Positions 23,927 through 55,822 of a stretch of DNA of 64,000 nucleotides are shown one piece after another. Each line of letters opens with the position of its first letter. The first letter of the stretch is position 1. The position numbers and the translations under genes are program-made. Source of the stretch: Flavihumibacter solisilvae (GTDB taxonomy: Bacteria; Bacteroidota; Bacteroidia; Chitinophagales; Chitinophagaceae); the NCBI RefSeq assembly GCF_000814475.1, contig NZ_JSVC01000009.1:1-64000 (forward strand), written 5' to 3'. Under the pieces are notes generated by a model. It worked only from the letters and a program-made list of their open reading frames with translations, had not been told where the DNA came from and searched no databases.

Positions 23927-23969
23927 TCACCCGTCGGGTGGCACCCGACGGGTGAGACACGACGGGTGA
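23927..23969. repeat. Perfect 14-bp inverted repeat with an extra partial copy
   Basis: TCACCCGTCGGGTG (23927-23940) and CACCCGACGGGTGA (23942-23955) form a perfect inverted repeat with a single-base spacer. A third partial copy, CACGACGGGTGA (23958-23969), follows directly. It begins 7 bases after the nhaA stop and has no T-tract, so it is not a classical terminator. It may act as a 3' hairpin or be a REP-like dispersed element. Confidence 0.75.
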
Positions 23970-24028
23970 AGAACTGCTTTTTGCTGGTCATTTTCGCATA
24001 ATCCCGCATTTTTTACAGTTTAATGCAA

Positions 24029-24053
24029 GTTTATGCGGTTTTTGCATAATTTG
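24029..24053 (+). promoter_or_regulatory. Putative operator/promoter of the first DeoR gene
   Basis: GTTTATGCGGTTTTTGCAT (24029-24047) contains the inverted repeat TTATGC-N7-GCATAA. It overlaps a promoter-like ATAATTTG (24046-24053), 36-60 bases before the ATG. Almost the same motif precedes the second DeoR gene (31878-31895). Shared sequence upstream of paralogous regulators suggests a common operator. Confidence 0.5.
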
Positions 24054-24088
24054 GCCCCGCGATCCTAAACTGCGCTGCCAAATAGAAA

Positions 24089-24838
24089 ATGCTTAAACAG
24101 GAGAGACAAGCCTATATCCTGCACCAGGTAAATCTTCATAACAAGATCCTTTCTGCCAACCTGTGCCAGGAGATGAACGTATCAGAAGACACCATCAGGC
24201 GTGATCTTCTGGAGCTTTCCACCAATGGAAAACTCGTTAAGGTGCACGGCGGTGCCATGTCCACCTCCTTCAGTCACACCACTGCGCAGAATGAAACCAT
24301 CTACGCTTCCGACAGCAAAAAGATAATCGCTCAAAAAGCCGCAAGTCTCGTCAAAGACGGCATGTTCGTGCTAACGACAGGCGGCACTACCATCATTGAG
24401 CTGGCCAGGGCATTACCCGCCGGTCTCAAAGCCACGTTTCTTTGCGGCAGCCTTCCTGCCCTGTTTGAATACATGCAGCATCCCAATATTGAAGTGATCG
24501 TGATTGGTGACAAGTTATCACGTAATGCGCGAATAACGGTAGGACCGCAGGCGATTTCGCAGGTTAAGGCAATCAAGGCGGACCTGTGTTTTATGGGTAT
24601 TAATGCCATTGACCCTGAGCATGGCATTTCGGATAACGACTGGGATGTGGTAATGCTGAAAAAGGCCATGATCCAGACTTCCAGGCATGTTGTCGGCCTC
24701 AGCATCGCAGAGAAAATCAATACGATACAAGCCATTCACCTCAGCCCGGTGAGTGGATTACATACGCTTATAACGGATTTACCGGCTGATCATGAAAGGC
24801 TCAAACCCTATTCTGACAAGGGATTGCGCCTTTTATGA
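24089..24838 (+). CDS. DeoR/GlpR-family transcriptional regulator (copy 1)
   Basis: This 249-residue regulator has an N-terminal DeoR winged helix (about 3-57: MLKQERQAYILHQV, then VSEDTIRRDLLELSTNGKLVKVHGGA). The C-terminal DeoRC sensor domain includes LTTGGTTIIELARALP and ISDNDWDVVMLKKAMI. DeoRC domains usually sense phosphorylated sugars. It is the first gene of a likely operon with the phosphoesterase-propeller (34 bases later), SusC and SusD genes. A paralogue of the same length lies just beyond the operon. Confidence 0.93.
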   Translation: MLKQERQAYILHQVNLHNKILSANLCQEMNVSEDTIRRDLLELSTNGKLVKVHGGAMSTSFSHTTAQNETIYASDSKKIIAQKAASLVKDGMFVLTTGGTTIIELARALPAGLKATFLCGSLPALFEYMQHPNIEVIVIGDKLSRNARITVGPQAISQVKAIKADLCFMGINAIDPEHGISDNDWDVVMLKKAMIQTSRHVVGLSIAEKINTIQAIHLSPVSGLHTLITDLPADHERLKPYSDKGLRLL

Positions 24839-24872
24839 TCTGGCACTCGAAACACATAGAAAACAGACACAC

Positions 24873-26744
24873 GTGAAAAAAAGCAAACTGCTGCTTGCAT
24901 TCCTGTTATTGGCCAACTGCCTGGGATATGCGCAAACTGCGACCGAGAAACCGCTCCGTTTTGCCTTCCTGACTGACCTGCATGTGAGTCCGGGTATCGA
25001 CAGCGAAAGCGGTCTTGAATCGATCGTGGATGAGATCAACCGTACTCCTTTCGACTTCGTTGTCGTGACGGGCGATGTCAGCAATACCGGTTCCAATGCC
25101 GAACTGGAATCAGTGAAGCGGATCCTTACGAGGCTGAAGCATCCGTTCCATGTACTGCCTGGCAACCACGAGACGAACTGGTCTGAGAGCGCCGGCAAAA
25201 CATTCCTGGACCATTGGAAGAATGACCGCTTTTCATTTAACCATGGCCGGTACTTCTTTATCGGCTTCAATACCGGTCCATACCTGAAAATGGGCGACGG
25301 ACATGTAAAACAGGAAGACCTGCTCTGGCTGAAAAGGGAACTTGCCGAAAAACTGAAACCGGGAATGGACGTTGTTTCACTCGCCCACTATCCTATCGGC
25401 GACGGCCTCGATAACTGGTTCGATGTAACGGCAATCCTCAAACAGTACCCGACGAAACTGATCCTTTGCGGTCATGGCCATCGCCTGTCGCTGCACAATT
25501 TCGACGGCATCACCGGTGTAATGGGAAGAAGCAGTCTCCCTAAAAACACGGCGGGACTCGGTTATAACATCATTACGCTTCAGAATGACTCCGTACAGAT
25601 AGAAGAAAAGATCGTGGGCGAAGCAAAGCCGCGACTGTTCCAGCATATGTCACTTGCCGAAAACAAGGCGCTGCAGAAAAAGATCTCCGGTCCGGCTCCC
25701 GACTATTCCATCAACGAAAAGTATGCGAAGCATGCGCCCAAATTTTCTTACCAGGACAATGCGTCCCTGTTCACTGCGGCAGTTCCTGCCGGAAAGAAAG
25801 CCATCACATTTGGCACATCGGATGGGAATCTAAAACTCATTGATGCCACTACAGGTAAACTGCTCTGGAAAGACAGTGTATTCGGAAGCATTTATACCAA
25901 CCCGTTATATACCGGGGAATACATCATTGCCGGCACCATCAGCGGCCAACTGATCGCCTGGAACCAGAAGAACGGTACACGTGCCTGGACCCTCGAATTC
26001 AATGAACCACTGATCAGCGAGCCCATTCAACATAACAACCTGATCTATCTCGGCGTGGGCAGCGGAACCATGTACTGCATGGATGCGCGCGACGGAAAGA
26101 TCATCTGGTCGTACAAAGGCATTGAAGGCCAGTTGCAGGCAAGACCTGCACTAAGCAAAGATGGAAAGCAACTGGTATTCGGAGCGTGGGACACTCACCT
26201 CTACTGCCTAAATGCAACCAATGGCGAACTGAAATGGAAATGGAACAATGGCAGTCGCGCCAAACTTTACTCTCCCGGCAACGTGGTACCTGCCATCGCA
26301 GGCAATAAAGTGATCATCGTTGCTCCTGACAGGTATATGACCGCGATTGACCTGCAGACCGGGAAAACAATCTGGCGCAATAACCAGTACCGGGTGCGTG
26401 AATCACTCGGCATTTCAGCCGACGGCCAGACTGTTTACGCGAAAACCATGATGGATACGGTAATCGCGGTAGCGACCAGCCCGGATACCATGCAGGTAAA
26501 ATGGATCGTCAATGCCGCGTTCGGATATGAGCATAACCCCTGTCCTATTACCGTCCATAACGGTGTGGTGTTCACCGGAACAAAGAACGGCGAGTTGGTG
26601 GCCATCGACGAAAAGAAGGGACAGATGCTTTGGAAATACAAGGCAGGCAATTCATCGATCAATGCTATCCGTACCGGCAAAAAAGATGAGATCTGGATCA
26701 GTCTCATCGAAGGAAAAATTCAGCGTTTCAATCAATCACTATAA
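24873..26744 (+). CDS. Secreted metallophosphoesterase fused to a PQQ-type beta-propeller
   Basis: This protein of about 623 residues starts at the GTG at 24873, which gives a good signal peptide (KKSKLLLAFLLLANCLGYAQ). An in-frame ATG at 24792 overlaps the DeoR gene and is rejected. Residues about 28-260 form a calcineurin-type phosphoesterase with every metal motif: TDLHV, GDVSN, GNHE, LAHYP and CGHGH. The C-terminal half (about 300-620) holds repeated PQQ/pyrrolo-type blades such as LIDATTGKLLWKDS, YCMDARDGKIIWSY and AIDEKKGQMLWKYK. It probably cleaves phosphoesters in the periplasm or at the surface. It is followed after 26 bases by susC-type and susD-type genes. Confidence 0.9.
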   Translation: MKKSKLLLAFLLLANCLGYAQTATEKPLRFAFLTDLHVSPGIDSESGLESIVDEINRTPFDFVVVTGDVSNTGSNAELESVKRILTRLKHPFHVLPGNHETNWSESAGKTFLDHWKNDRFSFNHGRYFFIGFNTGPYLKMGDGHVKQEDLLWLKRELAEKLKPGMDVVSLAHYPIGDGLDNWFDVTAILKQYPTKLILCGHGHRLSLHNFDGITGVMGRSSLPKNTAGLGYNIITLQNDSVQIEEKIVGEAKPRLFQHMSLAENKALQKKISGPAPDYSINEKYAKHAPKFSYQDNASLFTAAVPAGKKAITFGTSDGNLKLIDATTGKLLWKDSVFGSIYTNPLYTGEYIIAGTISGQLIAWNQKNGTRAWTLEFNEPLISEPIQHNNLIYLGVGSGTMYCMDARDGKIIWSYKGIEGQLQARPALSKDGKQLVFGAWDTHLYCLNATNGELKWKWNNGSRAKLYSPGNVVPAIAGNKVIIVAPDRYMTAIDLQTGKTIWRNNQYRVRESLGISADGQTVYAKTMMDTVIAVATSPDTMQVKWIVNAAFGYEHNPCPITVHNGVVFTGTKNGELVAIDEKKGQMLWKYKAGNSSINAIRTGKKDEIWISLIEGKIQRFNQSL

Positions 26745-26770
26745 TAACAAACCAAACCAAACACGTCAAC

Positions 26771-29700
26771 ATGGGAAATTTAAAGTCTCTGCTGGTAGTG
26801 CTGCTGCTAACCTGTATATCAGGTTTGGCGGTGGGACAAACGATCAGCGGCGAGGTTGTGGACAAAGCCTCGCAGCAACCCATTTCGGGGGCAACTGTAC
26901 GTGCCGGGGATGCCGGTACTTCCACCGATGATAGCGGAAAATTCAGTTTTACTGCTCCGGATGGAACAAAATCCATTACCATATCATCAGTTGGTTATGG
27001 TACAATTACCGTAAAAGTTGGAAGCGGAAATATCCGTATCCAGCTGGAACACGATGACAAATCACTGGAACAGGTGGTCGTTGTAGGCTATGGCACCCAA
27101 AAGAAAGCCAATCTTACCGGTGCTGTTTCAACAGTAAATGTTACCAAGCAAATGCAGTCAAGGCCGATGACGGATCCTGCGCGTGCATTGCAGGGCGCAG
27201 TACCAGGACTTACCATCAGTACTACAACAGGTGATCTGGGTTCCAATCCACAGATCCGCCTGCGCGGTGTAACGGGATCATTGAATGCTGCCAATGGTGC
27301 ACAGCCTCTTATCCTCGTAGATAACGTGGAGATTCCAAGCCTGATGCTGGTAAACCCTGAAGACATTGAAGCTATTTCTGTATTGAAAGATGCAGCCTCC
27401 ACATCAATTTATGGAAGCAGGGCTGCATTTGGCGTTGTGCTGATTACTACAAAAACGGGAAAGAAGAATTCAAAAAGCAGGATCACCTATTCCAACAACT
27501 TTTCCTGGAGCACACCAACTACAACGCCTAAGATTGCAGATGCTGCTGACGGACCGGAATATGCGCTTGCAGCAGCGATTCGTACCAACCCCAATAACAC
27601 TTTCTTCGGGACTGTTGGGATGACATTCGATGAAGCAAGCATTCAGAAGATCCGCGATTGGCAAAAGACCTACGGTGGCCAGGATCTTGGACCCGAAATG
27701 GTTGAAGGACGTGACTTTGAAGACATCGGCGGTAAGAAGTATTTCTACCGTCCATGGGATGCCGTTGACCTGTACATGAAGAAATGGACGCCGCAACAAA
27801 ACCATAACCTCAACTTCACAGGAGGCAATGATAAAACGTCTTACAACGTCAATCTCGGTTACCTCGATCAGAAAGGTGTACTGACCGAAAAAACTGATCT
27901 TTTCAAAAGGTATAATGCTTCATTCAGCATCAACTCCGCAGTTACTCCATGGCTGGACCTGACTGGAAAGGTGATGATGTCTAAAACAGAACAGGAGACT
28001 CCGTTTTCATATAACGGTACTGCATTTGATCCTTTGTATTACCTCTATCGCTGGCATGGAGTATATCCTTACGGAACTTTCCAGGGCAAACCTTTCCGTA
28101 ACGTGATCACAGAAATGCAGCAGGCTAACATGGTTGAAGAAGCCCGCAACTTTCTTCGGACAACAGTTGGCGGAACATTCAAGATCACAAAGGGTCTGAC
28201 ACTGAATACAAACTATACTTATACCAACAACAATAACCACATCAAAGATCCAGGCGGTGTTGCCACAGCATGGAACCAGTGGAACGCTGTGTGGGTATAC
28301 GGACCGTATTCTTCTGCAACATATAACAGGATCGCATATTATTCCGAATGGAATGAACTGCATACTGTAAAAGCATTTGCAACATATCAGAAAGATATCA
28401 AGGATCATGATTTCAAGGTTATTGCGGGTATGGATGTTGACCTTTACAAACCCTTTTCACAAGGTTCTGAAAAACAAAACCTGATTGACCAAACCCAACC
28501 TGAATTGCCATTGGCCACAGGAAATATGATCACTTCAGGTGGACGTGTCGACTGGAAAGGAATACGGGAATGGACAACACAGGGATTCTTTGGAAGGATC
28601 AACTATACTTTCAGAAATAAATTCCTCCTCGAAGTGAATGGTCGTTTTGACGGATCTTCATATTTCCCATCCAATGACCGTTGGGCATTTTTCCCTTCTG
28701 TATCTGCAGGATATATTATTTCTGATGAAAAGTTCATGGACTTTGCAGCACCCGTGCTCAGTCACCTGAAACTCCGTGCTTCTTATGGTTCGTTGGGAAA
28801 TACAGACGTGGGCAGCGCTACTTTCAGGCCCTCAATGTCTTCTTCAACCTCAGGATGGTGGATAGGCAGCACCAACATGCTGACTGTTAACACTCCTGCA
28901 CTGGTTCCGCCAGTATTGAAATGGGAGACCATCAAATCACTTGATTTCGGTTTTGATGCAAGATTACTGAATAACAAAGTTGGTGTGAGCTTCGACTGGT
29001 ATCGTAGAACAACCAGTGATATGATCACATCCGGAGAGGTGCTTCCTGCTACATTTGGCGCAACACCTCCTAAAAGGAACTACGGTGAAATGCAGACAAC
29101 TGGATGGGAAATTGCAATTGACCTCAACCATGGTTTCAGCAACGGGCTGAATATCAACGGTACACTGTCTTTCTCTGATTTCAAAGAAGAGATCACCAAG
29201 TACGATGGAAACAATATCAACGGGTATTACAAAGGCAAGCAGCTGGGCGAAATCTGGGGATATAGAACCGATCGTTTCTTTACAAAGGATGATTTTGAGC
29301 AGGATGCGAGCGGAAACCTGATCACTGATGCCAGCGGCCATTACATTCCCGCTAAAGGAGTGCCAACACAGTCCAAGCACGAAGCGAGCTGGTTCTTCTA
29401 TGGACCTGGTGACATAAAGTATAAAGACCTTAACGGTGACGGAACAATCTTTACCGGTGCGAAAACATTAGATGATCATGGTGACATGGTAGTAATTGGA
29501 AACAGTACACCTCGCTATCAGTATGGCATCCGCCTTGGTGCAGACTGGAAAGGAATTGATTTCAATTTGTTCATTCAGGGTGTCGGCAAGCGCGATTATT
29601 GGGGAACGGGTATGATCGTAATTCCTGGTTTCAATCCCAGTGACAACATGTATGCACACCAGATGGATTACTGGACTCCTGAAAATCCGGATGCATTCTA

Positions 29701-30019
29701 TCCGCGTCCTTCCAATACCGGTCAATCTAATGATGCTCAAAACTTCCTGGTACAGGACAAATACATGCTGAACATGGCTTACATGAGGTTGAAATCTGTT
29801 GGTATCGGTTATACGATCCCGGCACATCTCACTCAAAAAGCTAAACTGCAGCGTATGCGCATCTATGTGAATGGTGAAAACCTGTTTGAAAAAGAAAACC
29901 TGAGTGTGCCAATCGATCCTGAAGTTGGATTTAAGAACGCCAGCAGCCAGGCTGCCACTTTCGGCCGTGTTTATCCATACCGCAGAACGGTTTCCTTCGG
30001 AATCCAGGCAACATTATAA
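26771..30019 (+). CDS. SusC/RagA-family TonB-dependent receptor
   Basis: This 1082-residue outer-membrane importer has a signal peptide (about 1-22), then a carboxypeptidase-D regulatory-like domain (about 23-95, ISGEVVDKASQQPISGATV) and a TonB-box-like VVVVGYGTQKK. The plug domain contains the family signature EDIEAISVLKDAASTSIYGS, and a 22-strand barrel ends in VSFGIQATL. SusC proteins form a lidded channel with a SusD lipoprotein, which is encoded 21 bases downstream. No glycoside hydrolase is in the operon. The partner enzyme is the phosphoesterase-propeller protein, so a phosphorylated ligand is a reasonable inference. Confidence 0.95.
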   Translation: MGNLKSLLVVLLLTCISGLAVGQTISGEVVDKASQQPISGATVRAGDAGTSTDDSGKFSFTAPDGTKSITISSVGYGTITVKVGSGNIRIQLEHDDKSLEQVVVVGYGTQKKANLTGAVSTVNVTKQMQSRPMTDPARALQGAVPGLTISTTTGDLGSNPQIRLRGVTGSLNAANGAQPLILVDNVEIPSLMLVNPEDIEAISVLKDAASTSIYGSRAAFGVVLITTKTGKKNSKSRITYSNNFSWSTPTTTPKIADAADGPEYALAAAIRTNPNNTFFGTVGMTFDEASIQKIRDWQKTYGGQDLGPEMVEGRDFEDIGGKKYFYRPWDAVDLYMKKWTPQQNHNLNFTGGNDKTSYNVNLGYLDQKGVLTEKTDLFKRYNASFSINSAVTPWLDLTGKVMMSKTEQETPFSYNGTAFDPLYYLYRWHGVYPYGTFQGKPFRNVITEMQQANMVEEARNFLRTTVGGTFKITKGLTLNTNYTYTNNNNHIKDPGGVATAWNQWNAVWVYGPYSSATYNRIAYYSEWNELHTVKAFATYQKDIKDHDFKVIAGMDVDLYKPFSQGSEKQNLIDQTQPELPLATGNMITSGGRVDWKGIREWTTQGFFGRINYTFRNKFLLEVNGRFDGSSYFPSNDRWAFFPSVSAGYIISDEKFMDFAAPVLSHLKLRASYGSLGNTDVGSATFRPSMSSSTSGWWIGSTNMLTVNTPALVPPVLKWETIKSLDFGFDARLLNNKVGVSFDWYRRTTSDMITSGEVLPATFGATPPKRNYGEMQTTGWEIAIDLNHGFSNGLNINGTLSFSDFKEEITKYDGNNINGYYKGKQLGEIWGYRTDRFFTKDDFEQDASGNLITDASGHYIPAKGVPTQSKHEASWFFYGPGDIKYKDLNGDGTIFTGAKTLDDHGDMVVIGNSTPRYQYGIRLGADWKGIDFNLFIQGVGKRDYWGTGMIVIPGFNPSDNMYAHQMDYWTPENPDAFYPRPSNTGQSNDAQNFLVQDKYMLNMAYMRLKSVGIGYTIPAHLTQKAKLQRMRIYVNGENLFEKENLSVPIDPEVGFKNASSQAATFGRVYPYRRTVSFGIQATL

Positions 30020-30040
30020 TATTTAAAATCTGGCTACAAC

Positions 30041-31735
30041 ATGAAAAAATATATTTTATTTATAGCTACCGCAGCACTTGCATTTGCGGGCTGTAAGAAA
30101 GAGTTTCTCAATCGTCCGCCGGAGGACCAACTATCCGACGACACATATTGGACCAGCGAAAGTAATGTCCGCATTTTTGCCTGGGACTTTTATCCCCGTT
30201 ATTTCGATGGTTATGGTTCAGGATTTACCTGGGGAAAATATTTTTCCGGTCAATCTCTGAATGATGATTTCGCACCATCTGCTCCAACGCAGTTCATCAA
30301 AAATATACCGACTTCCGCTTCCTCAACCAGCTGGGGATTTTCCTGGATCAGGAAGGCCAATTTGTACCTGAACAGGATCCAGACTGTGCCTATGGAAGAA
30401 GCAGCAGTGAAACACTGGAGTGGTATAGCACGTTTCTTCCGGACCCTTGAATACCACAACCTGGTAAAGCGTTATGGCGATGTTCCCTGGTACGGTACAG
30501 TATTGGGTGAAACTGACTTTGATCAGTTGTATAAGCCACGCGACTCCCGGGCACTGGTGGTTGACAGTATGTTGAATGACCTTAAATATGCAGCTGAAAA
30601 TGTTCGTGAAAGCGACGGTGATAAAGGCCTTCATGTAAATAAAGCTGTTGTGCTTGCTTTCATGTCGAGGATCATGCTTTATGAAGGAACTTACTTTAAG
30701 TACCATAATATTGACCAGTCAAAGGCTACCATCTACCTTGAAGCAGCAAAGTGGGCAGCTGATCAGCTGATCACTTCAGCAAAGTATACTATTGGAGATG
30801 AGTATCGCTCACTTTTCAGTTCACTCAGCCTCGCAAGTGCGAAAGAGATCATCATGTATCGGAAATATGAAACAGGTATGATCACTCACGCTCTCGCAAG
30901 TTATAACTACCTGGAACCGCAGACCGGAATTTCAAAGGATGCGGTTGACAGCTACCTGGCAAACGATGGACTTCCAATTGGTGTATCAACTGCTTACCAG
31001 GGTGATAATGGAATTGACAAGGTTATGGCCAACAGGGATCCCAGGATGTATGCCACAGTAGTAAATCAACTGAGGATAAGCAAGTATGCTTCAAACTATT
31101 CCACCTCAGGTTTTTCACTGCACAAGTTCCTCAACGAGTCAGTTAAAAATCTTCCGGAGGGCGGTGGTAGTCTGAACCAGACAGACGCACCAATTATCCG
31201 TTACGCGGAGGTATTGCTGAACTACGCAGAGGCAACTGCTGAACTTGGCCAGCTTACGCAGGCTGACCTGGACAAATCTGTCAATGTATTGAGAAAGAGA
31301 ACAGGTATCAATATGCCTAACCTCCAGGTTATGGGCGACCAGCCTGCTATCAATGGTGTGTTATATGATGACCCTTCAAGGGATGCCACTGTCAGCTCAA
31401 TTATCTGGGAAATCCGCCGTGAGCGTAGGATTGAACTCATGATGGAAGGATTCAGGTATGACGACCTCAGGCGCTGGAAAAAGCTTGATTATACCGATAC
31501 CCAAGCAAATGCAGACATTAACAAAGGAGCATGGATCCGTAAAGCGGATTATCCCAATACTGATGTATTCATTGAAGGCGGTGCGGCTGAAGGATATATT
31601 ATTCCTGCAACCAAGGCCGAATCTCAGCGTCCTTTCCTTGATCCCAAAGTTTACCTTGATCCTATTCCCCTTGACCAGATCAAGCTATACGAGGATAACG
31701 GGTATGAACTGAAACAAAACCCGGGCTGGCAATAA
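30041..31735 (+). CDS. SusD/RagB-family surface lipoprotein
   Basis: This 564-residue lipoprotein has the lipobox FAGCKKEFLN near residue 17 and the early SusD motif PPEDQLSDDTYWTSE. The TPR-like helical body includes RFFRTLEYHNLVKRYGDVPW, YAEVLLNYAEATAELGQ and IIWEIRRERRIELMMEGFRYDDLRRW, which are hallmarks of the family. It binds the substrate as the lid of the SusC channel encoded 21 bases upstream. A strong terminator follows at 31767, closing the DeoR-phosphoesterase-SusCD operon. Confidence 0.95.
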   Translation: MKKYILFIATAALAFAGCKKEFLNRPPEDQLSDDTYWTSESNVRIFAWDFYPRYFDGYGSGFTWGKYFSGQSLNDDFAPSAPTQFIKNIPTSASSTSWGFSWIRKANLYLNRIQTVPMEEAAVKHWSGIARFFRTLEYHNLVKRYGDVPWYGTVLGETDFDQLYKPRDSRALVVDSMLNDLKYAAENVRESDGDKGLHVNKAVVLAFMSRIMLYEGTYFKYHNIDQSKATIYLEAAKWAADQLITSAKYTIGDEYRSLFSSLSLASAKEIIMYRKYETGMITHALASYNYLEPQTGISKDAVDSYLANDGLPIGVSTAYQGDNGIDKVMANRDPRMYATVVNQLRISKYASNYSTSGFSLHKFLNESVKNLPEGGGSLNQTDAPIIRYAEVLLNYAEATAELGQLTQADLDKSVNVLRKRTGINMPNLQVMGDQPAINGVLYDDPSRDATVSSIIWEIRRERRIELMMEGFRYDDLRRWKKLDYTDTQANADINKGAWIRKADYPNTDVFIEGGAAEGYIIPATKAESQRPFLDPKVYLDPIPLDQIKLYEDNGYELKQNPGWQ

Positions 31736-31766
31736 GCATAAACCCGGTTTTCTGAAAACACATACG

Positions 31767-31800
31767 AGCTGCCTGATTTTTTCAGGCAGCTTTCTTTTTA
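31767..31800 (+). terminator. Rho-independent terminator of the SusCD operon
   Basis: AGCTGCCTGA (31767-31776) pairs perfectly with TCAGGCAGCT (31782-31791) and is followed by TTCTTTTT. It lies 31 bases after the SusD stop. Confidence 0.85.
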
Positions 31801-31877
31801 TCCCACCATTGCAGAAACACGCAAAAAAATCTTAATTTAAACATGAAATTGCGCGAAGAACCTGCAATCTGTTTCGG

Positions 31878-31895
31878 GTTTATGCGTTTTTCCAT
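31878..31895 (+). promoter_or_regulatory. Putative operator upstream of the second DeoR gene
   Basis: GTTTATGCGTTTTTCCAT matches the motif upstream of DeoR copy 1 (24029-24047) except for one deleted G and one substitution. It lies 28 bases before the ATG at 31924. Confidence 0.5.
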
Positions 31896-31923
31896 TTTAA
31901 CCCAACTGCTTATCCTTATTGCC

Positions 31924-32673
31924 ATGCTAAAAAAGGAACGACAAGCCTATATCCTGCACAAGGTCAACCTGCACAACAAGGTATTATCCACACAGCTATG
32001 TGAAGAGATCCAGGTGTCAGAAGATACGATCCGCCGCGACCTGCAGGAAATGGCGGAGGAAGGGAAACTCATCAAAGTGCATGGCGGGGCATTGTCACAT
32101 TCTTTCAGCCAGGTAACCTTTTCGCCAAAAGAAGTCTATTCGCAGGAAAATAAAATGAGTATTGCCCGCAAGGCAGCCAGCCTGATCAAAGACGGCATGT
32201 TTGTACTAACCAGCGGCGGTACCACCATTATGGAACTGGCAAAGGCATTGCATCCCGGGCTCAAAGCCACTTTTATTTCCGGCAGTATCCCGGCTGTACT
32301 TGAATACATGAACCATCCCAATATCGATGTGATTGTGATCGGTGATAAAGTATCCAAGAGTTCACGAATCACTGTTGGGTCAGAAGCGATTTCCCAGATC
32401 AAAAGGATCAAGGCCGATATCTGTTTTCTTGGGATAAATGCCATTGACCTGAATCACGGCGTAACTGATAACGACTGGGAAGTGGTCATGATCAAACGGG
32501 CCATTATAGAAGCCTCGCAGAAAGTAGTGTGCCTCACTATCTCCGAAAAAATGGAATCCATACAGCCACTCCATGTATGCGATCTCAAAGACGTAGACTT
32601 ACTGATTACAGAACTTGATTCAGCTGACCCGCAGCTTCAGCAATACAGGGCGGCGGGAATAAACCTGTTGTAA
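31924..32673 (+). CDS. DeoR/GlpR-family transcriptional regulator (copy 2)
   Basis: This 249-residue regulator aligns without gaps to the copy at 24089. In the first 61 residues only 16 positions differ. The winged helix (VSEDTIRRDLQEMAEEGKL) and the sensor motifs (SGGTTIMELAKAL, VTDNDWEVVMIKRAI) are intact. The ATG at 31924 makes it the same length as copy 1. A longer in-frame start at 31843 would translate the operator-like motif and is rejected. It lies after the terminator of the SusCD operon, so it is expressed separately. Confidence 0.93.
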   Translation: MLKKERQAYILHKVNLHNKVLSTQLCEEIQVSEDTIRRDLQEMAEEGKLIKVHGGALSHSFSQVTFSPKEVYSQENKMSIARKAASLIKDGMFVLTSGGTTIMELAKALHPGLKATFISGSIPAVLEYMNHPNIDVIVIGDKVSKSSRITVGSEAISQIKRIKADICFLGINAIDLNHGVTDNDWEVVMIKRAIIEASQKVVCLTISEKMESIQPLHVCDLKDVDLLITELDSADPQLQQYRAAGINLL

Positions 32674-37316: not shown

Positions 37317-38399
37317 CTACTGTGGCCTCAACACCTGGTCAATCTTATGAACCACACCGTTTACTGCGTTGCGGTTTGCACCAATGATCTTAGAGAAAGT
37401 CGGGTTTACCCAACCCTTCACGCCCTGGGCTGCATCGAGAATTAACGGCGGTGCCGGATCGATCACCACGTTCAGGAAAGTTTTTACGGGCGACGGTGTT
37501 GTAGGAAAGTTCACAGTGAAAGCCCGCGCGAACTTGATCTTGGTTGGATCTGCGGGTGGACTGCCATCAAGGATATGGATATGATATGCGACAATACCCT
37601 GTACAGTTTGAATGGGTAGCATGCCTATCACAGAAGGATCAGGAGGCAATCCCAAACCTGCCAGCAACATTTTGAATGCATTGTTATCGGGGGCAAAAAC
37701 AGTAAAGTTGGCAAGCGGGTTGGCAAGCAACTGGCTGAACTTTGAACCATCCGGCAAACCTTCGTCCGCCCTGGCGATTGCAGCCGTAAAGAAAGTGAGT
37801 GAAGTGTCGCGGGCAATAGAGTCCATCACCACCCGCGTTGGTGGCGCAACAACTGCGAATACGTCATGGATCACACCGTTTGAAGCCTGGATATTCGCTT
37901 CCTTGACTGGTATGTTATTCACAAAAGCCATGTCGCCTCGCCTGGACAGGAAAGTCGGCATTTTGATAACTGCAGGTGCGCCAGGTAACTGGATAAGTGT
38001 GGGCATCTGCACATTCGGGTAAGCATCTGTAATGGAGGTAGTGGGCAATGCCTGCGGGATGATGTGATACTGCGCGATCCCTGCAACAGTAGCGGCTGGC
38101 AGTGCATTGATGATAGCTTCGTTTATGCCTGACAGGGCGAATGCGTCATTGTCCACCGCCAGCAGGGTAAGCTGTGCATCAGGATTGCTTAGTGTTGCCA
38201 TGATGCCACCCTTCGTTGCCGCCAGCTTCATCAGCGAATACTGTGGTTCTGTATTGATGATCTCTGCGATTGTCCTGCCCTCGGGAATCTCCGGCTGGAT
38301 CTCTTCCACCTCGGGGATCTTGTTGCAGGCAGTCAACTGGAAACCGGCAGCCATCGTCACCAGTACCAGTTTTGAATATTTTTTTATATGCTCAAACAT
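37317..38399 (-). CDS. Lipoprotein with two fasciclin (FAS1) domains
   Basis: This 360-residue lipoprotein has the lipobox FQLTACNK near residue 25. Two FAS1 domains lie at about 45-190 and 205-358. Each has the H1/H2-like signatures: LTLLAVDNDAF with NGVIHDVFAVV, and FTVFAPDNNAF with VNGVVHKIDQVL. FAS1 domains mediate adhesion or matrix and ligand contact at the cell surface. It lies 44 bases after a TonB-dependent receptor on the same strand. The pair is therefore probably a receptor plus surface lipoprotein unit, analogous in layout to SusCD. Confidence 0.9.
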   Translation of the reverse strand: MFEHIKKYSKLVLVTMAAGFQLTACNKIPEVEEIQPEIPEGRTIAEIINTEPQYSLMKLAATKGGIMATLSNPDAQLTLLAVDNDAFALSGINEAIINALPAATVAGIAQYHIIPQALPTTSITDAYPNVQMPTLIQLPGAPAVIKMPTFLSRRGDMAFVNNIPVKEANIQASNGVIHDVFAVVAPPTRVVMDSIARDTSLTFFTAAIARADEGLPDGSKFSQLLANPLANFTVFAPDNNAFKMLLAGLGLPPDPSVIGMLPIQTVQGIVAYHIHILDGSPPADPTKIKFARAFTVNFPTTPSPVKTFLNVVIDPAPPLILDAAQGVKGWVNPTFSKIIGANRNAVNGVVHKIDQVLRPQ

Positions 38400-38443
38400 G
38401 ATCTCTTGATTTGTAAGTTTTCGAATGCGGTTGCTTGTTGCAT

Positions 38444-41188
38444 TTAGAAGATGTTGTACCCGAATGACACGTAGTACAATCCACCTACGAAGCTGTTGCC
38501 GATCCCGTTGTAATAGTACTGGTTCAGCAGGTTATTTGCGCCAAGCTTAACTACGGATTTGTATTTCACAATCTTGTAGCTGACCTGTGCATCCAGGGTA
38601 TGAATTGCGGGTATACCACCGTTTCCGAAATCCTCTTCATAGAAGAACGCATCCTGCCACTTGTACACAATGCTCATGCCCAGGAGTTTTTTCTTACCGA
38701 GACTATTATTGCTCAGGCTTAGGTTGGTGCGGTATTTCGGTGTATTGAAATTGGCGATGAAACCTGAGTTCTTCAGATCATCTGCATTGTCCAGTACATC
38801 GGATGACAGGTTACCACCGATCACGAAATTCGCGGGCAGCCGGTAGTCGATGCTGATACCGAAACCATATACATTCACTTTCTGGTCAACATTGTAGGGA
38901 ACTGAGAACCTGCGGTCGGTCAGCGGGTTGGGCGCTGCACCTTCAGATGCAGGTTGTCCTATAATGGTACGTGCAAGGAAGTTTGTGTATTTGCCATAGT
39001 AACCGTACACATCAAACAGCAGCTTGTTGCCGAAGAGTCCCTTGTAGCCCACTTCATAGGAAGAAACCGATTCCGGTTTGTACTCCTTGAAGTTGTGGGT
39101 GCCGCCTGGTGTACCGTCGACATTGAAATCGTAAGGTTTGTTCTTCGTGAAATTATAATAAGTCTGGAAGCTCTTGTCACCACCTATCAGCTGCGTTCCG
39201 CCACCAATGAACAGGTTGATGAACTGTGCCTGGGTTGAAGGGAAACGGTATGCGGTCTGGTAAGAAACACGAACATTGTTGTTTTCTGCAACCTTGATCA
39301 CCGCAGTTGCTCGCGGGGTGAATCTTCCCTCGAAGTTTTCGTTCTTATCGTAGCGTCCTGAGAAGGTAAGCTTCAGCACATCATTGAACAAACGTCTTGA
39401 TGCCTGAACGTACGCGCCATACTCACGGATCTTGATGGTACCGGCAGTATCCACAAACAGTGTTCCCTTCGAATCGAGGTTAAACACTTTGTAGTTGGCA
39501 CCGACAAGCACATCGGCAACCTTGCCGGTGATATCGGAAAGATTGTACTGGCCTTCGGTCTGGTACATATCGGACTGTTCAATAAACAGCGCTCCGCCCT
39601 GCGACAGGGGAACGGAACGAACGCGGTTGAAAAGCTCTTTGAATTCATCGCTGCCGGCTGCAGGGCGACCTACATCAGCAACCGAGCGTGCCTGGCTATG
39701 CGCCTGGGCATCAGATAAACCGGCCATCTTGGATGCGAGGTAAGCCTGGCCGTATTGTGAATACCAGCCATTGACAGGATCCGTGCTCGATTTCCATGCT
39801 TCGTTGGTCAGCCTGGTAGCTGTTACCGCCGCGAACGACTGGCCCGCGTTTTCCTGTGTAGTGTAAGTCCGTAAGAACCAGTTGCGGTGATTCAGCTCGA
39901 GTTTGTACTGGCCCATCTTGAAATCCTTGAAGGAGTAACGGTCATTTCCCGTATAAACGCTGTTTCCGGTTCCCCAGTTACCAGCGATAACGCCTTCCAG
40001 CTTATCAGTAAACTTATAATGGACCGCACCACCGAGTTTGAAGTTCAGTGTCGACGGGTCAATGATGTCTTTTTCATCATAACCGGTACGGCTTACATTA
40101 ATCGGATCAGCTGAGATTGAATTGATGTATGGCGCCAGGAAAGGTGCCTGTGCAGCTATACCCCTGAACACAGCGCGGATATCTGCCGTAGTTTCGTCGC
40201 CATACACGTTGATGCCGTCATAGTTGGGATCTGATTCACGGGTTCCCGGAACGATCTGTCCCCTTCCTGTCGGGCGACCGGCATAGTTACGTTTATCAGC
40301 AGCTACCCAGTCTTTTGCCTGGATGAAATCTGCGGTGATCTTATACGCGAAACGGTTATTAATGTTTTCAGCCCACCTGGCCGTCCAGTTGTGAAAAGCA
40401 GAGATGTCACGGTAACGACCATCCGTATTCATCATCCCTTCTTTAATCTGGAATGAGAGGCCGGTATACTTGAATGGGTTCTTGCTGGAGATGAGCAGCG
40501 TTCCGTTCATTCCTCCAGGTCCGTATAACGCAGAAGACGCACCTGGCAGCAGTTCCATATTATCAACATCTAGTTCAGACAACCCGATGATCGCACCAAC
40601 GGAGAAGTTAAGCCCGGGGGCCAGGTTATCCATTCCATCCACCAGCTGGTTGAAACGCGTGTTGCCGCTTTTTGAAAATCCGCGGGTGGTCGGGGTTTTG
40701 AAAGTCATGGAAGAAGTCACCACATCCACCCCCTTCAGGTTGGCGACGATATCATAATATGAAGCAGCAGGAGAAGCACGCACAGCAGCGGCACCAACCC
40801 GCTCAATGGAAACGGGTGATTCGAGGATACGTTCAGGAACGCGACTGGCAGATACTACCACTTCCGTTCCGAGAGTGGAAGAAGGACGGAAGCTTACATT
40901 CACGGCTTGAGACGCGCTGTTTACCGTGACCTCCTGCGATTCAAATCCAACCGAGGAGAATACAAGCGTGAAAGGAGGCTTCTGTGCAGTAGTTAGTGTA
41001 AAATTTCCCTTATCGTCCGTAAAAGTACCGGAGCTGGTACCTTTTAAGGTTACGGATACTGCAGGCACTATATCCTGGTTCGAGCTGTTTTTGACGTTTC
41101 CGGTAATGGTAACGGTTTGGGCAAAGGCAGCAATCGACAGAAAAAGGGCCAACAGCATACAAGCAGAATAGCTGGTGGTTTTTCTCAT
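38444..41188 (-). CDS. TonB-dependent receptor with carboxypeptidase-like N-domain
   Basis: This 914-residue outer-membrane receptor has a signal peptide (about 1-23, ending AFAQ) and a carboxypeptidase-regulatory-like domain (about 25-110). The plug domain includes VVVSASRVPERILESPVSIERV and MELLPGASSALYGPGGMNGTL, and a beta-barrel ends in aromatic strands (GGLYYVSFGYNIF). It is shorter than SusC proteins and lacks their signature, so it is a classical TonB receptor, perhaps for a metal chelate, vitamin or oligomer. The fasciclin lipoprotein gene follows in the same operon. Confidence 0.93.
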   Translation of the reverse strand: MRKTTSYSACMLLALFLSIAAFAQTVTITGNVKNSSNQDIVPAVSVTLKGTSSGTFTDDKGNFTLTTAQKPPFTLVFSSVGFESQEVTVNSASQAVNVSFRPSSTLGTEVVVSASRVPERILESPVSIERVGAAAVRASPAASYYDIVANLKGVDVVTSSMTFKTPTTRGFSKSGNTRFNQLVDGMDNLAPGLNFSVGAIIGLSELDVDNMELLPGASSALYGPGGMNGTLLISSKNPFKYTGLSFQIKEGMMNTDGRYRDISAFHNWTARWAENINNRFAYKITADFIQAKDWVAADKRNYAGRPTGRGQIVPGTRESDPNYDGINVYGDETTADIRAVFRGIAAQAPFLAPYINSISADPINVSRTGYDEKDIIDPSTLNFKLGGAVHYKFTDKLEGVIAGNWGTGNSVYTGNDRYSFKDFKMGQYKLELNHRNWFLRTYTTQENAGQSFAAVTATRLTNEAWKSSTDPVNGWYSQYGQAYLASKMAGLSDAQAHSQARSVADVGRPAAGSDEFKELFNRVRSVPLSQGGALFIEQSDMYQTEGQYNLSDITGKVADVLVGANYKVFNLDSKGTLFVDTAGTIKIREYGAYVQASRRLFNDVLKLTFSGRYDKNENFEGRFTPRATAVIKVAENNNVRVSYQTAYRFPSTQAQFINLFIGGGTQLIGGDKSFQTYYNFTKNKPYDFNVDGTPGGTHNFKEYKPESVSSYEVGYKGLFGNKLLFDVYGYYGKYTNFLARTIIGQPASEGAAPNPLTDRRFSVPYNVDQKVNVYGFGISIDYRLPANFVIGGNLSSDVLDNADDLKNSGFIANFNTPKYRTNLSLSNNSLGKKKLLGMSIVYKWQDAFFYEEDFGNGGIPAIHTLDAQVSYKIVKYKSVVKLGANNLLNQYYYNGIGNSFVGGLYYVSFGYNIF

Positions 41189-54220: not shown

Positions 54221-54412
54221 ATGAAACAGGACCAGACAAAAAATATCAAACCCCAGGTGTTGAAGGACAAAAATGCCCGTCCTGAAAATAAAGACAACCT
54301 GGATCACCGTGAAGGTGAAGAGCAGGACTTTAAGGGCGACGATGTTACCCACAATAAAAAGGAGACCAAATCAGAGAAGCACAAACAGGATCATAGCCGG
54401 TCAGGCAAGTAA
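54221..54412 (+). CDS. Small, highly charged hydrophilic protein
   Basis: This protein of about 63 residues (ATG at 54221, with an alternative 3 codons upstream) is almost free of hydrophobic residues and rich in K, D, E, H and N (for example NKKETKSEKHKQDHSRSGK). It looks intrinsically disordered, like small stress-associated proteins of Chitinophagaceae, but I recognise no family. Its 3' end overlaps the convergent GH125 gene by 12 bases. The open frame and biased composition support coding only moderately. Confidence 0.55.
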   Translation: MKQDQTKNIKPQVLKDKNARPENKDNLDHREGEEQDFKGDDVTHNKKETKSEKHKQDHSRSGK

Positions 54413-55822
54413 TCCGCGTTTCTCACGGTACACTTTCCAGATGAATTCCCCGAAAATGGTATTTGCCCAGGCGAACCATTTTCGGGTGAATTTTGCGGTG
54501 TCGTCCTTGTGAACAGACTCATGCATGAAACCGGTACCTGCATGGCATTGCTGCAACATGCTGAGGCAATTTTTTATTTCCTTATCGTCAGTTGAGGTGA
54601 GTCCCTGCATCACGATGCTCATTGGCCACACCATGTCGAGGCCGATATGCGGGCCACCGACACCTGCCATTTTGGTCCCTTTAAAATAGAACGGGTTATC
54701 TTCTGACAACACGTAACTGCGTGTTTGCCGGTACAGTTTATCGGTAGAAGGTATTGCTCCGAGGTATGGTAACGCTAACAGTGATGGCACATTTGCATCG
54801 TCCATCAGGTTAAAACTTCCAAAACCGTTTGTTTCGTATGCATAGATCTGCCCATATTTATGGTGTGGAGTGACTGCATTTTCCTTCAAGGCTGCTGATA
54901 CCTGTTGAGCAAGAGATTTTGCTTCATTGATTTCCTTCTCCAGTCCTCCTTTCCGTTGAAACAGTTCTGCCATCTGCTGAAGGGACACAACGGCAAAGAA
55001 ATTGGCTGGTATGAGGTAAGGATAGATAGTTGCATCGTCACTCGGACGGAACATGGAACAAATGAGCCCGTTTGGTTTCGCCGGATAACCGTAACCGGCC
55101 ATAGGAACGCCATCGGTCGCCCAGGCAGTTTTACGCTGGAAATTATAAGGGCCCGCGTTATGGAACCGCTGTTGCTCACGGAATGTTTTGATCACCAGGC
55201 GCATGGCTTCCACCCACTGGTCATCGAGAACGGAAAGGTCACCTGTTTCTTTAATATAACCATGAGCGAGCCTGATGGGATAACAGAGGGAATCAATTTC
55301 CCACTTACGTTCATGGACACCCGCCTTCATGTCAGTAATATCTGTCTCCTTCCATTCGCTTACTTTCTTTTCATCCTTATAGAAGGCATTCGCATAGGGA
55401 TCTTTAATGATACATTTCACCTGGCGGTTGATCACCCCCTTGATGAGTTGCTGAAGGTCTTTGTCTTCGTGACAGAGAGGAATATAGGGCCAGACCTGTG
55501 CGGAGCTGTCGCGCAGCCACATGGCATCGATATCACCGGTTATTACGTAGGTGTCCGGTTTTCCATCGATCATCTCAAACTCGACAGTAGTATCCAGTGT
55601 ATTGGGAAAGCAGTTTTCGAAAAGCCAGCCAATCTCTTTATTGCCGGTGTTACGGCGGATATCGGCGATTAGTTTTTCGACCGCTTTGCTGTTGAATTTA
55701 CGTTGTGCAAGCGGAGTTCGCACCTCGGGAAACTGGTTGCGGCCATTGGCGAAAACGCCTGAGCCTATCATTACGCCTGCTGTTGCAAATGCGGACTGTT
55801 GAATAAATTTCCTTCTCTTCAC
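54401..55822 (-). CDS. GH125 exo-alpha-mannosidase, Tat-exported
   Basis: This 473-residue enzyme has a twin-arginine signal (MKRRKFIQQSAFATAG). The GH125 hallmarks are the substrate-site stretch TGDIDAMWLRDSSAQVWPY, then ATDGVPMAGYGYPAKPNGLI, MFRPSDDATIYPYLIPANFF and the C-terminal KFTRKWFAWANTIFGEFIW. GH125 enzymes are exo-alpha-1,6-mannosidases acting on mannan or N-glycan fragments. It is expected in the periplasm. It appears to be a single gene. Confidence 0.93.
   Translation of the reverse strand: MKRRKFIQQSAFATAGVMIGSGVFANGRNQFPEVRTPLAQRKFNSKAVEKLIADIRRNTGNKEIGWLFENCFPNTLDTTVEFEMIDGKPDTYVITGDIDAMWLRDSSAQVWPYIPLCHEDKDLQQLIKGVINRQVKCIIKDPYANAFYKDEKKVSEWKETDITDMKAGVHERKWEIDSLCYPIRLAHGYIKETGDLSVLDDQWVEAMRLVIKTFREQQRFHNAGPYNFQRKTAWATDGVPMAGYGYPAKPNGLICSMFRPSDDATIYPYLIPANFFAVVSLQQMAELFQRKGGLEKEINEAKSLAQQVSAALKENAVTPHHKYGQIYAYETNGFGSFNLMDDANVPSLLALPYLGAIPSTDKLYRQTRSYVLSEDNPFYFKGTKMAGVGGPHIGLDMVWPMSIVMQGLTSTDDKEIKNCLSMLQQCHAGTGFMHESVHKDDTAKFTRKWFAWANTIFGEFIWKVYREKRGLLA

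Follow-up and report, generated by a model that had tools for sequence, protein, structure and literature searches.

A SusCD unit with a phosphoesterase–propeller fusion and a candidate DeoR operator in Flavihumibacter solisilvae

We analysed a 64,000-nucleotide stretch of the Flavihumibacter solisilvae genome (contig NZ_JSVC01000009.1, positions 1 to 64,000 of the forward strand; hereafter the window) and characterized one tight forward-strand unit, which encodes a DeoR-family regulator (DeoR1), a metallophosphoesterase fused to a propeller (the fusion), a SusC-like transporter and a SusD-like lipoprotein, followed by a hairpin and a second DeoR gene (DeoR2; Table 1). We tentatively read this unit, with a confidence somewhat short of probable, as a DeoR-controlled SusCD module of Chitinophagaceae that imports an amino-sugar oligosaccharide, in which a periplasmic phosphoesterase would cut a phosphoester on the ligand and DeoR2 would be a remnant. 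The gene content, metal motifs, operator-like sites and family relations are read directly from the sequence. An initial annotation had described the same arrangement, and Pfam and NCBIfam profiles together with the gene spacing (gaps of 34, 26 and 21 bases within the unit) confirmed it; the annotated start, 24029, lies 60 bases before the DeoR1 gene, and the unit itself stood.

Gene content and candidate operator

The transporter scored 793 bits against TIGR04056 (cut-off, 368 bits), and the adjacency of a SusC (TIGR04056/TIGR04057) and a SusD lipoprotein (PF07980/PF14322) identifies a SusCD uptake pair. The combination of an HTH_DeoR domain with a DeoRC sensor domain places the regulator in the DeoR family; the nearest NCBIfam DeoR models were GlpR and AgaR, both below cut-off. 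Regulators of this family often sense phosphorylated sugars, and on this family knowledge the annotated view of an uptake unit under such a regulator is retained. No catalytic carbohydrate-active enzyme (CAZyme) domain was found in the five locus genes or the five tested neighbours, which sets the unit apart from classical polysaccharide utilization loci (PULs).

Pairs of TGCR half-sites (TGCG/TGCA) at a spacing of 10 are strongly over-represented upstream of DeoR genes: 64 pairs (32 on the other strand) were found in 82 regions, including the two of the window, against 0.5 in base shuffles. For an operator matrix we used sites in front of DeoR genes from other genomes. Of the 80 other DeoR loci, 50 had a pair that could be used within 150 bases, which made 48 distinct sites; the remaining 30 had none or a region that was cut. 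Across the 64 kb of the window, this matrix scores highest in front of DeoR1 (21.4 bits; next best, 14.8 bits). Related loci, designated by L numbers, carry similar sites. L136, whose operon begins with the fusion gene and whose promoter was outside the training set, has two sites immediately upstream of that gene (27.2 and 26.7 bits). The three best sites of L034 precede its DeoR1 (19.2–20.8 bits) and one precedes its DeoR2 (19.1 bits), the best site of L035 (20.7 bits) lies between SusC and DeoR, and L175 has a 21.5-bit site about 240 bases before SusC and a 19.1-bit site before a run of ROK, MFS and SIS genes. On the whole, these sites appear to tie the fusion and SusCD to DeoR control. The rest of the genome contained no second match to TTTRTGCGKTTTTTGCAT at ≤2 mismatches, and a single-pattern genome search at ≤3 mismatches gave 27 matches against 15 for the reversed control; only the DeoR1 site had fewer than three, and we therefore claim no distant regulon members. 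Between nhaA and the candidate operator, a 14-base palindromic unit is present in three near-copies (23928–23969).

Table 1 Features of the DeoR–fusion–SusCD unit (positions in the window)
Feature	Position	Strand	Evidence and remarks
Candidate DeoR operator	24016..24045	+	TGCR half-sites, 10-bp spacing, in front of DeoR1
DeoR1	24089..24838	+	PF08220 HTH_DeoR and PF00455 DeoRC; probable regulator of the module
Metallophosphoesterase–propeller fusion	24873..26744	+	Probable GTG start; PF00149, then PQQ_2/BamB-like profiles; signal peptide
SusC-like TonB-dependent transporter	26771..30019	+	TIGR04056, TIGR04057, PF07715, PF13715
SusD-like surface lipoprotein	30041..31735	+	PF07980 and PF14322; lipobox FAGC by eye
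Terminator-like hairpin after SusD	31766..31792	+	11-pair stem with T tail
Weak, degenerate operator-like site before DeoR2	31865..31894	+	8.8 bits, twelfth in the window
DeoR2	31924..32673	+	Start ATG 31924, in-frame ATG also at 31843; probable leftover regulator

A longer alternative open reading frame (ORF) for the fusion, from ATG 24792, would overlap DeoR1. The hairpin scan as a whole was at chance level (9 found, 9.1 expected in shuffles); the hairpin directly 3′ of SusD had its longest stem. The unit is flanked on the left by an OstA-like gene (recognized by reading) and NhaA (Pfam), and on the right by DUF417 and Gate-domain proteins (Pfam) and YchF (recognized by reading). Elsewhere in the window are a GH125 alpha-mannosidase gene (54401–55822), distant from the locus, and, on the minus strand (37317–41188), a TonB-dependent receptor next to what looks, on reading, like the gene for a fasciclin-type lipoprotein.

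SusD relatives, ligand class and the second DeoR gene

The SusD protein has a poor structure model (mean predicted local distance difference test score (pLDDT), 58.4), and the solved structures closest to it in sequence are distant (best, 3qnk, 79 bits). Relatives of the SusD occur in 53 of 294 genomes of the family. The eight nearest outside the genome of the window are 54–72% identical to it in that search, and three of them stand beside genes for amino-sugar use. L170 (SusD identity, 61%) encodes a GH9 protein, a ROK kinase, an MFS transporter, an SIS protein and NagA (TIGR00221, 282 bits; cut-off, 226), L174 (55%) encodes NagA and GH9, and L175 (53%) encodes a GH9-deacetylase with ROK, MFS and SIS proteins. 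GH9, ROK and MFS genes recur in L129, a NagA-like gene (35%) in L195 and GH9 relatives near DeoR–SusCD in three Chitinophaga loci (L127, L131 and L132); L190 and L191 have GHL10 genes, L191 additionally DUF4623. L081, which belongs to another, far fusion clade, combines SusC and the fusion with a GH109 gene and a kinase resembling N-acetylhexosamine 1-kinase (E 1e-54). The genome of the window itself encodes, at another location, a GH9-deacetylase that is 67% identical to the GH9 of L170. (Within this genome, a GH9-polysaccharide deacetylase gene adjoins a beta-lactamase-fold gene at L205:7776-11486, contig G000:C74.) These family relations argue with moderate strength that the ligand of SusCD is an amino-sugar-containing glycan. 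The initial annotation had instead built the system on a phosphorylated ligand, which the surveys do not bear out: among the best 80 of at least 565 confirmed DeoR relatives, 70 loci have a SusC-like gene and 2 have the fusion, which also stands beside only 12 of the 46 SusDs in the SusD tree (on several branches, with at least eight changes), and amino-sugar genes turn up several times.

A number of observations weigh against an amino-sugar ligand handled by a DeoR-controlled phosphoesterase unit. Only three of the eight nearest SusDs have the amino-sugar set (genomes G102, G229 and G018, with loci L170, L174 and L175, respectively), two have the fusion (G008 and G106) and three have neither (G253, G162 and G259). 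The GH9-deacetylase and NagA-like genes of the window's genome are not at the locus, and the best operator site in the stretches that hold them (about 40 kb in all) reaches 8.5 bits. The matrix scan found no site above 9.9 bits in L174, and the best site of L170 (17.1 bits) barely exceeds a 16.3-bit one inside susC. No homologues of the L170-type GH9, ROK, MFS, SIS or NagA proteins (E 1e-20) were found in 56 loci centred on the fusion, most of them covering 8 kb on each side and some on short contigs; the L170-type genes thus seem to replace the fusion rather than to work with it, and the amino-sugar genes of L081 differ from the L170-type set. The PDB entries nearest to the GH9 members are named endoglucanases, so any glucosaminidase activity of these members would be hypothetical, and the fusion loci L086 and L089 have GH42, GH2 or GH16 genes.

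DeoR1 and DeoR2 share 61% identity, and at E 0.001 the genome has only one further match to DeoR2 (29% identity). In the DeoR tree (117 rows; all of our trees are quick builds with Shimodaira–Hasegawa-like approximate likelihood-ratio test (SH-aLRT) support only and some long branches), DeoR2 clusters (100, starred) with DeoR2 of G008 and with a DeoR of Flavihumibacter fluminis (L090) that heads a SusC–SusD2–DUF4397 module between nhaA and the Gate gene, the same slot as in the window. DeoR1 clusters with DeoR1 of G008 (SH-aLRT 92, not starred, long branches). A genome that shares the genus code of the window encodes a SusD2 with 99% identity to the F. fluminis one, which makes Flavihumibacter the probable genus of the window. 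We tabulated 37 distinct loci with the same Gate-domain neighbour, of which 7 have the fusion, the loci having been fetched for carrying these genes, so that such fractions are not natural frequencies. A fuller form of the slot, in L177 and L173, reads DeoR–SusC–SusD1–(226 residues or nothing)–DeoR–SusC–SusD2–(253 or 254 residues), the last protein occupying the place held elsewhere by DUF4397; in other slot loci SusD1 is accompanied by the fusion or by a 235-residue protein. Given the slot table and the grouping of DeoR2 with a regulator that heads SusC–SusD2–DUF4397, the DeoR pair most plausibly represents the remnant of two tandem DeoR–SusCD modules, the second of which would have lost its transporter, rather than parts of the one compact unit described in the initial annotation.

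The slot before the Gate-domain gene, mostly with ychF, holds exchangeable DeoR–SusCD modules, sometimes two in tandem (L173, L177, L101, L189, L196 and others). A protein of about 235–250 residues stands beside DeoR or DeoR–SusC–SusD1 in Niastella, Longitalea and other genomes (L101:9111-9815, L097, L113, L171, L187 and L189); the L101 copy of this companion, the one tested, has no Pfam match. A DUF4397 lipoprotein (L090:15646-16389 and kin) is the usual companion of DeoR–SusC–SusD2 modules.

The fusion protein and its distribution

All motifs of a calcineurin-like metallophosphoesterase (DxH, GD, GNH, H and GHxH) are present in the fusion, and the metal-motif residues D36, H38, D69, N99, H100, H173, H202 and H204 (residue 1 being codon 24870) are the same in all 58 aligned sequences (57 distinct, as L075 equals L137, and including that of the window), in agreement with the annotated view that the sole secreted enzyme of the unit has a complete metal site. 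The nearest solved phosphoesterases are 2dxl, 2zo9 and 3d03 (E 6e-8, 36 bits, about 160 aligned residues), a phosphohydrolase that we take to be the glycerophosphodiesterase GpdQ; by this similarity the enzyme is a putative GpdQ/CpdA-like phosphoesterase. Its signal peptide is ordinary, with Q22 after the likely cleavage point in 56 of 58 aligned sequences; inspection by eye found no canonical lipobox (L-A-N precedes Cys17), and no C-terminal sorting domain was among its Pfam matches. For these three reasons the enzyme is most likely periplasmic and would act after import, contrary to the annotated order of events, in which phosphate was removed before import. In the structure model (mean pLDDT, 77.7), the propeller best matched BamB, WD-type and designed eight-bladed folds over about 295–344 aligned residues. 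The propeller took all rows of the fold search, leaving the catalytic domain unlisted, which is no evidence against that domain. The propeller also matches PF25292, the propeller domain of lambda-carrageenase, above cut-off at 38 bits, and scores far higher with the BamB-type profiles.

An intact phosphoesterase metal site in the only co-transcribed enzyme, and its kinship to 2dxl/2zo9/3d03, would also suit a Pus-type phosphate-scavenging system, a view in line with the initial annotation and with the PUS model of Flavobacterium. Organophosphates or phosphodiesters would enter through SusCD, and phosphate or the alcohol would be released from them by the phosphoesterase in the periplasm. In PUSI, PusCD1 goes together with periplasmic enzymes of the PF00149 and CpdA-like types (PMC8115612). 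Two fusion loci, L086 and L089, have purple-acid-phosphatase-like genes, L089 also a PF04185 phosphoesterase. However, the regulator is a DeoR and not an ECF/FecR (extracytoplasmic function sigma factor/anti-sigma factor) pair or a phosphate system, and Pfam found no sigma or anti-sigma gene of these types among the five tested neighbours. Further, the profile matches of SusC include no STN domain, the SusD kin accompany sugar genes, and the unit contains no phosphate transporter or second phosphatase. We consider phosphate scavenging a serious, if unlikely, alternative. (In L089:7992-9839, near the purple-acid-phosphatase-like, GH16 and PF04185 genes, the fusion copy itself is split over three ORFs.)

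The fusion is a real family, mostly standing alone: it occurs in 56 of 294 genomes, at 58 places. Linkage was assessed on a tree of 57 rows (the window, 55 places and L136; the partial copy of G030 and the split copy of L089 were left out), a copy counting as linked when BLASTP with the window's SusC/SusD gave a match within 3 ORFs on the same strand, a definition that may miss divergent SusCD. Fourteen copies are linked and 43 are not. The initial annotation had called for such a count and named a fusion 'usually found away from SusCD' as refuting its reading; this applies family-wide and does not apply in the window's clade of four (100, starred), where all four are linked, an opposite-strand DeoR lying between the fusion and SusCD in L035. 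A clade of 38 (99, starred) is never linked, a clade of 13 (99, starred) is linked in nine cases, and one member of a remaining pair is linked. Gene order varies, the fusion preceding SusC in the window, L034 and L136 and following SusD in L071, L072, L075 and L087. (In L137:10845-14277 and L075, seemingly the same record, SusC consists of two overlapping ORFs of 306 and 876 residues.) The many lone copies, the clade of 38 and the varying position would be expected if the fusion were a general envelope phosphoesterase, for example in the turnover of lipid phosphates or cell-wall precursors, that was caught in SusCD operons as a passenger. Yet linkage is clustered on the tree in more than one clade, the fusion, SusCD and DeoR are combined in two separate clades, and in L136 the candidate DeoR operator directly precedes the fusion, and we judge a passenger role rather unlikely.

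Co-occurrence in trans was considered as further support and given no weight. The fusion and the SusD family share 32 genomes (odds ratio, 13.8), and at the genus level the fusion is found in 17 of 23 SusD genera (p 1e-6), but a control, the SusD family of the DUF4397 modules, shares 32 of 94 genomes (odds ratio, 3.8) and 24 of 45 genera (odds ratio, 8.0). Because the control family co-occurs too, adjacency alone was used as evidence.

A more specific proposal receives little credence from us: that the unit takes up amino-sugar glycans joined by phosphodiester bonds (phosphoglycans, GlcNAc-phosphate or teichoic-type polymers) through a SusCD pair from an amino-sugar clade, that the periplasmic fusion cuts these bonds and that the DeoR senses the amino-sugar phosphate so formed, all in a slot for exchangeable cassettes. 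The propeller, annotated as PQQ-type, belongs to the BamB/PQQ-like fold family and looks BamB-like, with no sign of a pyrroloquinoline quinone (PQQ) site. A vicinal Cys pair marks many quinoproteins. That the propeller carries PQQ and the fusion oxidizes the alcohol released by the phosphoesterase, a version of the redox cofactor first suggested for it, is very improbable, since the PQQ_2 match and the weak quinoprotein dehydrogenase matches in its favour are outweighed by the BamB, WD-type and designed folds that match best, by the lack of vicinal Cys-Cys anywhere in the fusion and by dehydrogenase scores far below cut-off (TIGR03075, 88.6 bits against 480).

Proposed mechanism and comparison with known systems

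Under our preferred reading, DeoR1 would bind the TGCR repeats before its own gene and keep the DeoR1–fusion–SusC–SusD transcript repressed; a phosphorylated breakdown product, most likely the phosphate of an amino sugar, would lift the repression. An oligosaccharide that contains amino sugars and resembles chitin, murein or a phosphoglycan would be bound at the surface and imported by SusD and SusC, after which the periplasmic GpdQ/CpdA-like phosphoesterase would cut a phosphodiester or a phosphate substituent on the imported ligand, its propeller perhaps serving as a substrate-holding or protein-docking part. Glycoside cleavage and catabolism would fall to enzymes encoded elsewhere in the genome, and DeoR2 would be what remains of a second module. 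Four parts of this scheme are inferences: repression, the amino-sugar ligand, the periplasmic location and, most of all, the phosphoester as substrate. Ligands are not known for many of the SusCD pairs in environmental Bacteroidota; a definable operator-like motif for this DeoR-linked group could make regulon members and ligand class predictable from sequence. Should the imported ligand prove to be the substrate of the phosphoesterase, the unit would parallel the PusCD systems, with regulation by sugar in place of phosphate, and would offer a route to the degradation of phosphate-linked glycans.

The unit shares with Sus-like PULs the SusC–SusD tandem, surface capture and TonB-dependent import, whereas those loci include a CAZyme and this one has none and a DeoR as regulator. 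The fusion has the metal motifs of GpdQ/CpdA-class phosphodiesterases (2dxl, 2zo9 and 3d03) but is secreted, propeller-fused and only weakly similar to them. No published account of a phosphoesterase–propeller fusion was found among the titles and abstract openings of the matches listed. The amino-sugar SusCD–GH9–ROK–MFS–SIS(–NagA) clusters of L170 and L175 resemble the unit in their SusD (53–61% identical), a nearby DeoR and, in L175, DeoR-type sites, and differ in having a glycosidase, a deacetylase and catabolic enzymes where the unit has a phosphoesterase.

DeoR beside SusCD is already in print: in a Urechidicola symbiont (Flavobacteriaceae), one locus consists of deoR, two susCD pairs, murQ, nagB and ampG, most genes of which are said, in the portion of the paper available, to serve murein metabolism (PMC10199937). 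We liken it to our unit by gene content, not homology; it has two SusCD pairs, a full murein/amino-sugar catabolic set and glycoside hydrolases, and the available text names no phosphoesterase–propeller fusion. In the accessible part of another paper (PMC3818352), DeoR occurs merely as a legend code. The PUS loci of Flavobacterium johnsoniae, as far as the excerpted text goes, place PusCD beside periplasmic phosphodiesterases (PF00149, CpdA-like) or PhoA, are induced by phosphate depletion and are listed with ECF/FecR regulators for PUSI–PUSIII (PMC8115612). They share with the unit the pairing of SusCD with a phosphoesterase (in the window, by sequence), whereas the unit has a DeoR with an operator-like site, a single fused enzyme and SusD kin found with amino-sugar genes. 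The unit departs from PUS loci in its regulator and from classical PULs in having no CAZyme, and we file it as a DeoR-governed variant of SusCD loci.

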